From Gemmatirosa kalamazoonensis (GTDB lineage: Bacteria > Gemmatimonadota > Gemmatimonadetes > Gemmatimonadales > Gemmatimonadaceae): 64,000 bases of DNA. Both the position numbers and the translations under genes were made by a program. The stretch covers positions 248,001 through 312,000 of the forward strand of contig NZ_CP007129.1 in NCBI RefSeq assembly GCF_000522985.1, in the 5' to 3' direction. A model generated the notes under the pieces. That model was not told the DNA's origin, made no database searches, and worked only from the letters and a program-made list of their open reading frames with translations. Numbering within the stretch: position 1 is the first letter of the stretch; every line of letters begins with the position of its first letter. Positions 29,317-64,000 of the stretch are shown piece by piece.

Positions 29317-30081
29317 GTGTCCGCGTCCGTCCCACCTCCCGCGCTCGCCGCGCGCGACGTCGTGCACCGCTACGGCGTGGAGCGCGCGCTCGATGGCGTG
29401 AGCCTCGACGTGGCGGGCGGCGCGACGTGCGCGCTCGTCGGCGAGAGCGGCTCGGGGAAGACGACGCTGCTCCGCTGCTTCAATCGCATGGTCGAGCCGG
29501 AGCATGGTGCCGTGTCGGTGGGCGGCGCGGACGTGCGCGCGGCGAGCGCCGTGGCGCTGCGGCGCAGCGTGGGCTACGTGCCGCAGGACGGCGGGCTGCT
29601 GCCGCACTGGCGCGTGCTCCGAAACGTCGCGCTCGTGCCGTCGCTGCGGCGGATGCCTAACGCGACCGCGCTGGCCTCGGACGCGCTCGCGCTCGTCGGG
29701 CTGCCGGCCGAACGGTACGGGCGGCGCTTCCCGCACGAGCTGTCGGGCGGCCAGCGCCAGCGTGTCGCGCTCGCCCGCGCGCTCGCCGCGCGTCCCGGCG
29801 TGATCCTGCTCGACGAGCCGTTCGGCGCACTCGACGCCATCACGCGCGCCGACCTGCAGAGCGCGTTCGCCGACGTGCGCGCGGCGACGGGCGTGACGAC
29901 GCTGCTCGTGACGCACGACCTCGCGGAGGCGGCGCGGCTCGCCGACACGGTCGCCGTGATGCGTGCGGGGCGCGTGGAACAGTGCGCGCCGTTCGCCGGC
30001 CTCGCCGCGTCGCCGGCCACCGCGTACGTCGCCGCGCTCGTCGCGAAGGCCGTCGAGGCGACGGGGGCGCTGCGGCGATGA
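29317..30081 (+). CDS. Osmoprotectant/glycine-betaine ABC transporter ATP-binding protein
   Basis: A 254-residue OpuBA/ProV-type ATPase. Walker A is GESGSGKTTLLRCFNRM (the CFNRM tail is typical of the family), the Q-loop is YVPQDGGLLPHW, the signature is LSGGQRQRVALARAL and Walker B is VILLDEPFGALD, followed by LVTHDLAEA. Unlike many ProV proteins it lacks C-terminal CBS domains. The start is GTG 29317, with an in-frame GTG 6 bp earlier. Its TGA overlaps the ATG of the fused permease gene (ATGA). Confidence 0.88.
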   Translation: MSASVPPPALAARDVVHRYGVERALDGVSLDVAGGATCALVGESGSGKTTLLRCFNRMVEPEHGAVSVGGADVRAASAVALRRSVGYVPQDGGLLPHWRVLRNVALVPSLRRMPNATALASDALALVGLPAERYGRRFPHELSGGQRQRVALARALAARPGVILLDEPFGALDAITRADLQSAFADVRAATGVTTLLVTHDLAEAARLADTVAVMRAGRVEQCAPFAGLAASPATAYVAALVAKAVEATGALRR

Positions 30082-31706
30082 GCGCTCTTCGTTTGAACCG
30101 CAGAGGACGCAGAGGACGCAGAGGAGAACCATTCCTGGCTGGTTTCCTCTGCGTCCTCTGCGTCCTCTGCGGTTCGATGTCGTTATCCGCCCAGCCGGTC
30201 GTCGTCGCATCGAAGCCGTTCGGCGAGTCGTACCTGCTGTGCGAGATGTTCGCGCAGCTGCTCGAGTCGCACGGCATCGCCGTCGTGCGCCGCCCCGGGC
30301 TCGGCGCGACGGAGGTGGCGTTCGGTGCGCTGCGGCGCGACGCGATCGACGTCTACCCGGAGTACACCGGCACGGGGCTGCTCGCCGTGCTGCACGACTC
30401 GCTGCCGCCGGCCGCGGCGCGCGACCCGCGCGCGGTGTACGCGTACGTCGCGCGCGCGTCGACCGAGCGGTTCGGGGTGCGGTGGCTCGCGCCGCTCGGG
30501 TTCCAGAACACGTACGCGGTCGCGGTGCGGCGCGCGACGGCGGACAGCCTCGCGCTGCGTACGTTGGACGACCTCGCGCGCGCGGCGCCGCGGCTCCGCG
30601 CCGGCCTGACCGCGGACTTCATCGGTCGACCCGACGGGCTTCCCGGGCTCGCGCGCGCGTATGGCCTGCGCTTCGCCGAGGTGCGGCCGCTCGCGCCAGC
30701 GGTGAAGTACCAGGCGCTCGCGGCGCGCGCGGTCGACGTCATCGACGGCTACTCCACCGACGGGCTGCTCGCGAAGTACGACCTCGTCGCGCTCGACGAC
30801 GACCGCCGCTTCTTCCCGCCGTACGAGGCGGCGCCGGTGCTCGGCCCGCGCGCCGCGTCGCGTGCCGACGTCGTCGCCACGCTGTCGCTGCTCGCGGGCC
30901 GGCTCGACGAGCCGCGCATGCGCGCGCTGAATCGCCGCGTGGAAGTGGACGGCGAGGACGTGGCGCGCGTGGCGGCGGACGCGTTGCGCGACATCGGGCT
31001 CGGACGTGGCGCGCGGCCGGCGGGTGCGGCGCGGAGCGCGACGCGCACGACGTCGCTCGGCGCGTACCTGTGGGGACGGCGCGCGACGATCGCGTCGCTC
31101 ACGGCGCGGCACCTCGCGCTCGTCGGGGCGGCGCTCGGGCTCGCGGCCATCGTCGCGGTGCCGCTCGGCCTCGCGCTCGAGCGCGCGCGCGGCGCCGCCG
31201 GGCCGACGTTAGGCGCGCTCGGCGTGCTGGAGACCGTGCCGAGCATCGCGCTGCTCGCGTTCATGCTGCCGCTGCTCGGCGTCGGCGTGCTCCCGGCGCT
31301 CGTCGCGCTGTGGCTCTACGCGCTCTATCCGATCGCGCGCGGCACGTACACCGGCGTGCGCGACGCCGACCCCGCGGCGGTCGAGGCGGCCGAAGCGCTC
31401 GGCGCGACGGCGGCGCAGCGGCTGCTGCTCGTGCGGCTGCCGCTCGCCGCGCCGGTGATCATGGCCGGCGTGCGCACCGCGGCGGTAATCACGGTCGGTG
31501 CCGCGACGCTCGCCGCGTTCATCGGCGCGGGTGGGCTCGGCGAGCCGATCGTGACCGGGCTCGCGCTCGCCGACACGCGGCTCGTGCTCTCCGGGGCGCT
31601 CCCGGCCGCGGCGCTCGCCCTCCTGGTGGACGCGGCGTTAGGCGCCGTGGAGCGGCTCGTCACGCCGCCGCACCGGAGGGGAGGGGCGCGGCGGGAACGA
31701 CATTGA
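30078..31706 (+). CDS. Fused osmoprotectant binding protein-permease (OpuBC-OpuBB type) with repeat-encoded signal peptide
   Basis: A 542-residue fusion. After the signal region, residues about 36-310 are an OpuAC-type substrate-binding domain (VVVASKPFGESYLLCEMFAQ; DVYPEYTGTGL). Residues about 330-530 are the permease, with VPLGLALERARG and EALGATAAQRLLLVRLPLA (EAA loop). In most relatives the permease comes first. The ATG at 30078 is fixed by ATGA coupling to the ATPase gene. The next 81 bases are a palindromic repeat, read as LNRRGRRGRRG then FLAGFLCVLCVLCG, giving the basic n-region and hydrophobic core of a lipoprotein-like signal. Starting at ATG 30177 instead would leave the binding domain without export. 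The TGA stop is the first bases of another copy of the repeat. Confidence 0.85.
   Translation: MSALRLNRRGRRGRRGEPFLAGFLCVLCVLCGSMSLSAQPVVVASKPFGESYLLCEMFAQLLESHGIAVVRRPGLGATEVAFGALRRDAIDVYPEYTGTGLLAVLHDSLPPAAARDPRAVYAYVARASTERFGVRWLAPLGFQNTYAVAVRRATADSLALRTLDDLARAAPRLRAGLTADFIGRPDGLPGLARAYGLRFAEVRPLAPAVKYQALAARAVDVIDGYSTDGLLAKYDLVALDDDRRFFPPYEAAPVLGPRAASRADVVATLSLLAGRLDEPRMRALNRRVEVDGEDVARVAADALRDIGLGRGARPAGAARSATRTTSLGAYLWGRRATIASLTARHLALVGAALGLAAIVAVPLGLALERARGAAGPTLGALGVLETVPSIALLAFMLPLLGVGVLPALVALWLYALYPIARGTYTGVRDADPAAVEAAEALGATAAQRLLLVRLPLAAPVIMAGVRTAAVITVGAATLAAFIGAGGLGEPIVTGLALADTRLVLSGALPAAALALLVDAALGAVERLVTPPHRRGGARRERH
30095..30176. repeat. CGCAGAGGA palindrome translated as a signal peptide
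   Basis: The left arm is GAACCGCAGAGGACGCAGAG plus one further CGCAGAGGA unit; the right arm is the inverse complement with CTCTGCGTC units ending GCGGTTC. The loop is about 22 nt. It lies fully inside the 5' coding region of the fused permease gene. It is the same family as 31704-31869 and 62398-62476. Confidence 0.9.
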
Positions 31707-31869
31707 ACCGCAGAGGGCCGCAGAGGGCCGCAGAGGACTGCCTCTTTTCTTGAACCACAGAGGACACGGAGGACACAGAGGAGAACCCTTCAAGAGACTT
31801 GGGTTTCCTCCGTGTCCTCTGTGTCCTCTGTGGTTCAAAAGAAAGGCTCTGCGGCCCTCTGCGGTTCGA
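31704..31869. repeat. Double nested palindrome of CGCAGAGG and CACAGAGGA units
   Basis: The outer arms contain GAACCGCAGAGGGCCGCAGA on the left and CTCTGCGGCCCTCTGCGGTT on the right. The inner arms contain GAACCACAGAGGACACGGAG and CCTCTGTGTCCTCTGTGGTT. The loop near 31794-31806 contains CTTCAAGAGACTTG. This element fills most of the 31707-31901 spacer, and its first TGA terminates the permease gene. No T-tract follows the stem. Confidence 0.9.
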
Positions 31870-61781: not shown

Positions 61782-61786
61782 GGACC

Positions 61787-61850
61787 GCTGCGTGGCTGCG
61801 TGGCTGCGTGCTGCTTATGATGAGCCACGCAGCCACGCAGCCACGCAGCT
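61787..61850. repeat. GCTGCGTG palindrome, right border of SusCD pair 2
   Basis: The left arm is GCTGCGTGGCTGCGTGGCTG followed by CGTGCTGC, and the right arm is GCCACGCAGCCACGCAGCCA followed by CGCAGC. The loop is TTATGAT-like. It begins 6 bp after the SusD stop. It is a better conserved copy than the one at 57070 and occupies most of the 61782-61892 spacer. Confidence 0.9.
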
Positions 61851-62397: not shown

Positions 62398-62476
62398 TTG
62401 AACCGCGGAGGACGCAGAGGACGCAGAGGGGAACTCATTCGGTCTCCGGCTTTCCTCTGCGTCCTCTGCGGTTCGA
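62398..62476. repeat. CGCAGAGGA palindrome at the 5' end of the FG-GAP gene
   Basis: The left arm is GAACCGCGGAGGACGCAGAG plus GACGCAGAGG. The right arm has CCTCTGCGTCCTCTGCGGTT. The loop is about 25 nt. It is of the same family as 30095-30176. The first TTG of the element is the probable start codon of the next gene and it is read in the same frame as in the permease gene. Confidence 0.9.
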
Positions 62477-63978
62477 TGCTTTTTGCCTGCAGCCGCTCCG
62501 ATCGCCCGCCGGCGCCGAGCTTCGCGGCGATCTTCCCGCCCGCCACCGGCGCGCTGATGAACGAGTCCTCGCCCGCGCTCGCGGACCTCGACGGCGACGG
62601 CGTGCCCGACATCGTGTTCGGCTCGGGCGTGGACCGCACGCGGCCGGCGGGGCGGCGGCTCGTGTTCACCGGACAGCCGGCGGTCTCCGGCTACGTCGTC
62701 GCCGTCTCCGGGCGCACGAACCGGATCCTGTGGCAGGTGCCGAACCCGCGCGACGCGTTCACCACGCCCCGCTTCGCGTACCTCGACCACGACCGCGTTC
62801 CCGACGTCGTCATGGGCGGACGCGAGGGAGTGCTCACCGCGTACGCGGGCACCGACGGCCACGTGCTGTGGCGCGTGCTGGGCGAGGACGTCGTCGCGAC
62901 GCCGTTCCCGTACTACTTCCTGACGCCGGCCATCGTGCCCGACGTGAACGGCGACGGCGTGCCGGACGTCGTCGACACGTACGGCGGCAACGACACGCGC
63001 GCGCCGAGGGATGCGCGCGACGCGGGCTACGTGATGGTCGTCTCGGGCGCCGACGGCCGCGTGCTGAGGGCGCAGCGGGTGCCCGACGGCGCCGAGACGT
63101 ACGCCTCGCCGCTCGCGTATCGGCGGCGCGACGGGAGCACGTGGGTGATCTTCGGCACCGGCGGCGAGACGAAGCCCGGCGCCGAGTGGCGCGCGCCGCT
63201 CGCGTCGCTCGTCGACAGCACGCTCGCCACGCGCGCGGAGCGCCTCGTGCTGGAAGGGACGAAGGGGGTCATCGCGCCGCCGACGCTCGTCGATCTCACC
63301 GGCGACGGCGAGCAGGACGTGCTCGTGAACACGTTCGACGGACGGCTCGTCGCCGTGGACGGCGCGACGGCGAAGCCGCTGTGGTCGCACGCCGACTCGT
63401 CGGAGGAGTCGTACCACCAGCCGGCGGTCGTGCGCCTAACGAGGGACGGCGGGCGCCTCGGCCTGTTCGTCTCGCGCGGCATCGGCGCCTTCCCGCGCTA
63501 CGTCGGCACGGTGCACCGGCTGTACGACGCCGCGACCGGGCGCGTGCTGTACGAGTATCGCGATCCGAACTACCCGGCCGGCGCGCCGCTCGCCGTCGAC
63601 CTCACCGGCGACGGCGTGGACGAGCCGGTGTTCTTCACGCAGCGCTTTCCGGCCGCCCAGGGCTCGCGCATCCACGTGCTCCATCTGCCGACGCATCGTC
63701 TCGCGTCGCACGACGTGCCGGACAACCTGTGGAGCACACCGGTGGTCGCCGACCCGCGCCGTACGGGCACGCTGGAGCTGATCGGCGTGTCGTGGCGCAT
63801 GGGGCCGAACGGCATCGCGAGCCTGCCCGACGTGCAGTGGCAGCTGCTGCGTCTCGATCTCTCGGCGAAGACGCCGTCCGCGATCACGTGGGGCGGGTAC
63901 ATGGGGACGACGGCGGACGGGCGGTATCACGCTGGAGATCTCACGCGGAGCCGCGGAGCACGCGGAGAACACCAGTGA
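62398..63978 (+). CDS. FG-GAP/VCBS-like lipoprotein with both ends encoded by palindromes
   Basis: A 526-residue protein with beta-propeller-like repeats bearing Ca-binding Asp loops: LADLDGDGVPDIVFG, PDVNGDGVPDVVD, VDLTGDGEQDVLV and VDLTGDGVDEPVF. The start is a TTG at the CGCAGAGGA palindrome. The first residues (NRGGRRGRRGELIRS, then PAFLCVLCGSMLFAC) make a lipoprotein signal with lipobox LFAC. The internal ATG at 62476 would leave only MLFAC before the lipid site. The last residues LTRSRGARGEHQ and the stop come from a CGCGGAG palindrome. It lies 13 bp after the plug lipoprotein and probably forms an operon with it. Confidence 0.8.
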   Translation: MNRGGRRGRRGELIRSPAFLCVLCGSMLFACSRSDRPPAPSFAAIFPPATGALMNESSPALADLDGDGVPDIVFGSGVDRTRPAGRRLVFTGQPAVSGYVVAVSGRTNRILWQVPNPRDAFTTPRFAYLDHDRVPDVVMGGREGVLTAYAGTDGHVLWRVLGEDVVATPFPYYFLTPAIVPDVNGDGVPDVVDTYGGNDTRAPRDARDAGYVMVVSGADGRVLRAQRVPDGAETYASPLAYRRRDGSTWVIFGTGGETKPGAEWRAPLASLVDSTLATRAERLVLEGTKGVIAPPTLVDLTGDGEQDVLVNTFDGRLVAVDGATAKPLWSHADSSEESYHQPAVVRLTRDGGRLGLFVSRGIGAFPRYVGTVHRLYDAATGRVLYEYRDPNYPAGAPLAVDLTGDGVDEPVFFTQRFPAAQGSRIHVLHLPTHRLASHDVPDNLWSTPVVADPRRTGTLELIGVSWRMGPNGIASLPDVQWQLLRLDLSAKTPSAITWGGYMGTTADGRYHAGDLTRSRGARGEHQ

Positions 63979-64000
63979 AGTGTTGTGCTCCGCGTGCTCC
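63940..64000. repeat. CGCGGAG palindrome, cut by the window edge
   Basis: The left arm is CACGCGGAGCCGCGGAGCAC plus GCGGAGAAC, the loop is CACCAGTGAAGTGTTG-like, and the right arm CTCCGCGTGCTCC runs to the window end. It is the same family as 45806-45965. It encodes the last 12 residues and the stop codon of the FG-GAP gene. Confidence 0.85.

Follow-up and report, generated by a model that had tools for sequence, protein, structure and literature searches.

Signal peptides evolve fast, and the origin of new ones is seldom caught in the act. REP and BIME elements are short, mostly intergenic, high-copy palindromes that are mobilised by RAYT (Y1_Tnp) transposases. In Rickettsia, the multi-copy palindromes known as RPE lie in frame inside coding genes, and the host proteins tolerate them (Ogata et al. 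2000, as summarised in PMC2229807 and PMC10969869). The closest precedent for the locus described here is the RU-2/YPAL palindrome of Yersinia, which makes up part of the signal peptide predicted for YPO1552, a protein whose relatives carry signal sequences unrelated to RU-2/YPAL (Delihas 2007, PMC2759123; PMC2229807). We analyzed a stretch of 64,000 nucleotides from the soil bacterium Gemmatirosa kalamazoonensis (hereafter, the window) in which a palindrome stands at the beginning of a transporter gene. The reading that we favor, with a probability of roughly 0.83, is that a dispersed, non-autonomous, MITE/REP-like palindrome replaced the core of the Sec signal peptide of this permease, that similar replacements occurred in other exported proteins of the same genome, and that the copies are sorted by reading frame.

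The permease gene (positions 30078 to 31706 of the window, plus strand) encodes a 542-residue fusion of an OpuAC substrate-binding domain (PF04069, E 9e-57) and a BPD_transp_1 permease domain (PF00528, E 2e-19). Its upstream partner, at 29317 (an approximate start) to 30081 on the plus strand, is an ABC transporter ATPase gene in which the Walker and ABC signature motifs can be read from the sequence. The two genes share an ATGA start/stop overlap at 30078 to 30081, with the permease ATG (30078-30080) overlapping the ATPase stop codon, in agreement with an earlier note on this DNA that took the overlap to fix the start. The palindrome begins 17 nt downstream of the start, behind the fifth codon, and spans 81 nt or 27 codons (30095 to 30175, plus strand; GAACC...GGTTC), with two arms of 31 nt each (30095-30125 and 30145-30175) that are 100% complementary and are separated by a 19-nt loop. 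Both the palindrome and its translation had been described correctly: the 5' arm reads as RRG units, which would form a basic n-region (NRRGRRGRRG, 30096 to 30125), and the 3' arm as LCV units, which would form a hydrophobic core (FLCVLCVLCG, 30144 to 30173; 10-residue Kyte-Doolittle maximum, 2.97). The frame is MSALRL-NRRGRRGRRGEP-FLAGFLCVLCVLCG-SMSLSAQPVVVASKPF, in which the stretch after the element is SMSLSA|QPVVVASKPF, where SMSLSA|Q (30174 to 30194) is the putative native c-region with a probable signal peptidase I site before the codon at 30192. The RNA of this region is predicted to fold with an energy of -102 kcal/mol for 151 nt (z = -9.0), and such a stem of more than 30 bp, 17 nt past the start codon, may limit translation of the permease mRNA. 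An octamer, CGTTAGGC, that occurs at about 31209 and 31632 of the window is strongly over-represented on C3, the contig of the window, with 777 occurrences on both strands of 1.1 Mb, both within and outside genes; the 7-mer GTTAGGC occurs 892 times there, where 7-mers of equal composition have a median count of 64.

Orthologues of the permease were collected from whole genomes and from a GTDB contig collection, with a few genomes present in both, and were read upstream of the conserved motif VASKPFGES. The 84 orthologues with a readable N-terminus have a median leader of 35 residues, nearly all of these leaders are ordinary signal peptides such as MRRALLVLALAIAPLTSRAQ or MKGLRRFAITVGCTLFATTLSAQ, and none of the 84 contains the repeat. 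Because 70 of the 84 relatives retain an NTGA overlap with the ATPase gene and ordinary signal peptides are found at that place, position 30078 is very probably the correct start, and the comparison confirms that the repeat occupies the exact place of the predicted permease signal peptide. The rival proposal that translation begins past the element, at ATG 30177 in the permease and at ATG 62476 in a second gene of the window (g2, below), the element being a mere leader, draws on the in-frame ATG that immediately follows the element in both genes and on the atypical codon usage within the element, which makes a codon-based start finder place the start behind it. We regard this as very improbable: besides the conservation of the overlap, a start at 30177 would leave the substrate-binding domain without a signal, unlike most relatives, given that hydropathy reveals no hydrophobic core between that ATG and the binding domain, and a coupled start precedes the element in g3, g4, g6, g11, g12, g13 (see below) and other genes. 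A plasmid collection contained no copy of the permease locus.

Hydropathy, charge and the cleavage motif served as criteria, and by these the N-terminus that begins at 30078 resembles a Sec signal peptide. The n-region has a net charge of +6 before the core; the ten-residue core fits the usual length of about 7-15 residues, its 12-residue hydropathy is 2.97, compared with a median of 2.42 in the relatives, and the core ranks in the top 4% among N-termini of the same replicon. The putative cleavage site SLSA|QP has alanine at -1 and leucine at -3, and the AQ junction is common among the relatives. Leucine at position -3 of a signal peptidase I site is tolerated, if suboptimal. The suggestion that LCVLCG comes close to a lipobox does not survive inspection because every cysteine in LCVLCVLCG is preceded by leucine, where G, A or S is required; a lipoprotein permease processed by signal peptidase II, which would have to match [LVI][ASTVI][GAS]C, was therefore rejected in favor of the better-fitting SLSA|QP. 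Among the element-bearing genes, lipobox-like sites are confined to g2 (LFAC) and g6 (VQSC), and neither is a perfect match.

The DNA that encodes the permease c-region, TCG TTA TCC GCC CAG CC (SLSAQP), resembles TCG TTA GGC GCC CAG CC (SLGAQP). The genome contains six occurrences of the corresponding pattern, TCGTTAnnCGCsCAGnC (TCGTTANNCGCSCAGNC), every one of them in a signal-peptide c-region: three in signal peptides free of the element (MQLRIPLLLAVAASSLGAQA, MTRRAPAGAAAALLAATSLGAQP and MLRHALLFTAGAIAAATSLGAQP) and three behind the element (g1, which is the permease, g3 and g4). Given that this DNA is confined to signal-peptide c-regions and that half of its occurrences are element-free, the element most likely took over the core of a pre-existing permease signal peptide. 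The earlier proposal that the repeat works as a signal peptide is well supported by its position, by the conserved start and by its recurrence (below), whereas the further proposal that it creates exported proteins is not, the signal peptide whose core it most likely replaced being still present in the orthologues.

The element belongs to a large family. The sequence AACCRCAGAGG has counts of 180/192 over the 7.48 Mb of the genome, while its reversed control has 3/3, and the unit pattern was found 13 times in the window, compared with 0.79 expected. These counts, like the folding z-score, are not what chance would give. A search for two-armed copies gave 81 pattern matches per strand in the genome, some of them overlapping. 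The element is present in roughly 170 clusters, 171 having been examined in the stretches that were read; this survey is incomplete, covering the contig of the window in stretches and two other large contigs around copies only. The consensus is ATTGAACC...GGTTCAAT. Like a MITE, the element is a palindrome scattered over the genome in many copies, and it does not encode the means of its own movement; when the composition of the flanks was inspected for target-site duplications, the extended palindrome alone was visible. The Y1_Tnp (RAYT) profile PF01797, the one transposase family searched, had no match in the genome and was positive in the control genomes, and a RAYT-driven REP was therefore rejected. 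One composite intergenic copy lies directly 3' of the permease gene, at 31704 to 31836 of the window (C3:279705-279836 in the copy list). The element-encoded peptide was detected in 2 of 395 Gemmatimonadota genomes at E <= 1e-4, namely this one and a relative with diverged copies, so that there is no independent replication at the species level. Sequences related to the element but diverged from it (CACAGAGGACACAGAGG, in many cases with TTTACCACAGAGG ends) were seen in other Gemmatimonadota (G013, G211 and G033; L281, L283, L333-L360). The literature search found no earlier description of the element in Gemmatirosa. Other palindromic families, with arms made of short tandem units (GCTGCGTGG, CACGCGGAG and GGGACTCGG), occur in the window at 61785-61850 and 63947-64000 and at L323:2328-2408.

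A similar arrangement recurs elsewhere in the genome: reading of the surveyed copies yielded 14 genes whose N-terminus contains the element. Ten of them pass an automatic filter that requires a start coupled to the upstream gene, and the other four (g2, g7, g8 and g10) come from reading. Eight carry the 3' arm in the LCV frame: the permease; g2, an FG-GAP/PQQ-like protein (62398 to 63978, plus strand; FG-GAP_3, E 8e-12); g3, a beta-lactamase-fold protein (L174:2483-4051); g4, an M15 peptidase (L174:5406-6563); g5, a second beta-lactamase-fold protein (L173:2480-4498); g6, an SBP_bac_1 protein (L180, minus strand); g11, a GDPD-like protein named by eye with no Pfam match (L214:5960-6826); and g14, a HEAT-PPIase with a weaker core (L125, minus strand). 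The second window gene, g2, is a weaker case since its start must be a TTG within the element, whose 75-nt copy (62400 to 62474, plus strand) encodes NRGGRRGRRGELIRSPAFLCVLCG, followed by SMLFAC|S. Six further genes carry the 3' arm in the PLR or SSA frame: a glycoside hydrolase (g7, L169), a cytochrome c (g8, L212), a protein with a pseudopilin leader (g9, L267), CtaG (g10, L166), an alginate lyase (g12, L217) and an outer-membrane efflux protein (g13, L238). Most of the 14 are members of exported or membrane families. Seven other copies (C3:159818, L186, L187, L208, L322, L240 and L218) were dismissed as N-terminal cases because the gene has its own downstream start or is not convincing; C3:159818 and L186 pass the coupled-start filter and were left out on account of their own downstream starts. 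Relatives of the M15 peptidase that match near its N-terminus begin with ordinary signal sequences; the orthologue search for the GDPD-like gene gave a single distant match, which is uninformative. The C-terminus of the M15 peptidase is encoded by a copy of the GGGACTCGG family, and its residues 355-383 have many matches in the genome. The 5' arm reads EPQRTQR or EPQRTRG rather than RRG in g3, g4, g11 and g14, and therefore the predicted basic n-region need not come from this arm.

The frame of the element correlates with what follows it. None of the eight LCV-frame genes has a hydrophobic stretch of its own after the element, whereas all six PLR/SSA-frame genes keep one (8/0 against 0/6; Fisher p = 3.3e-4, a somewhat biased test because the list was partly chosen by reading, with four of the 14 genes picked in this way). 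Five copies lie in frame inside conserved genes, encoding PFOR, gamma-glutamyltranspeptidase, an ArsA-type ATPase, a BTAD regulator and one unassigned protein (C3:582470-582551, L203:2500, L205:2500, L210:2500 and L253:2497); all five read, in the SSA frame, EPQRTQR...SSASSASSAV, which is hydrophilic, and they are tolerated there, being mostly located between domains, with the gamma-glutamyltranspeptidase copy within a domain. The lengths of all copies are evenly spread modulo 3, and therefore the frame is not built into the element. The copies are thus sorted by frame according to context, as expected if selection purges wrong-frame copies, and selection is the presumed cause of the sorting.

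These observations also bear on the possibility that a recent insertion destroyed the permease signal, leaving a loss-of-export allele that has not yet decayed and whose signal-like reading is accidental. The perfect arms are compatible with an insertion or conversion that is young and perhaps precedes any action of selection, and readthrough is free in an element that is open in several frames. Nevertheless, we consider such an allele improbable: all eight genes that lack another core carry the core-supplying frame, for which the chance is (1/3)^8 = 1.5e-4 if frames are random, all six genes in the other frames retain a core, and the reading frames of the element-bearing genes are intact across full domain lengths.

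It is also conceivable, albeit doubtful, that the element and the c-region were copied between genes as one ready-made cassette rather than recruited separately each time. The genes g3 and g4, which encode unrelated folds and lie about 3 kb from each other, both have TTCGTTAGGCGCCCAGCC right after the element, and the permease agrees with it at 15 of 18 positions. Against such copying, the c-region DNA is also found in the three element-free signal peptides, the loops, lengths and 5' arm frames vary between genes, and the c-regions of g2, g5, g6, g11 and g14 are different.

Under the replacement reading, the non-autonomous palindrome would sit just behind the permease start codon in place of the native hydrophobic core, its two arms would supply the n-region and the h-region, and the surviving native c-region SMSLSA|QP would provide the cleavage site, such that the permease would be exported like its relatives, with the binding domain outside the membrane. 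The element-encoded peptide is presumably translated and active in export. Similar replacements would have affected the beta-lactamase-fold, M15 peptidase, SBP_bac_1, FG-GAP, GDPD-like and HEAT-PPIase proteins, with the LCV frame used where there is no other core, and the remaining frames occurring beside a retained native core or in copies within genes. On the sequence evidence, the repeat appears to stand in for the export signal in the permease and at least six other exported proteins. We lean slightly towards the broader view that the palindrome is a reusable, frame-selected signal-peptide cassette, with one basic and one hydrophobic arm, that within this one genome took over, in separate events, as the export signal of seven or eight different proteins, and whose in-gene copies are confined to hydrophilic frames. 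The genome would then show a series of signal peptides replaced by an identifiable repeat, the original state being preserved in relatives, which makes testable the minimum for a working export signal and suggests that mobile repeats can stay inside genes through frame-dependent selection. For annotation, there is a warning against taking such repeats as non-coding: where the start is called after the repeat, the signal peptide would be lost from the gene model.

Like a typical signal peptidase I substrate, the permease has a basic n-region, a hydrophobic core, a candidate small-residue c-region and a mature domain that is predicted to be exported; it differs in that the DNA originates from a dispersed repeat and the core is unusually cysteine-rich. 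With REP and BIME elements the Gemmatirosa element shares small size, a mostly intergenic location and high copy number, but Y1_Tnp is without a match here and the arms consist of tandem 9-nt units. The five internal SSA-frame copies are comparable to RPE, which are unrelated in sequence and host and are given no signal-peptide role in the summaries consulted (PMC2229807, PMC10969869). RU-2/YPAL is likewise a small dispersed palindrome that contributes to the signal peptide predicted for a putative exported protein; however, it is 168 bp long and involves one small hypothetical protein, whereas the Gemmatirosa element, of about 81 nt, is found in seven to eight genes, mostly of well-known exported families, with native c-regions retained and the frame sorted against the presence of a native core. 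What is new relative to this precedent is the combination, in one genome, of several apparent replacements, mostly in well-known exported families, with retained native c-regions and frame sorting.
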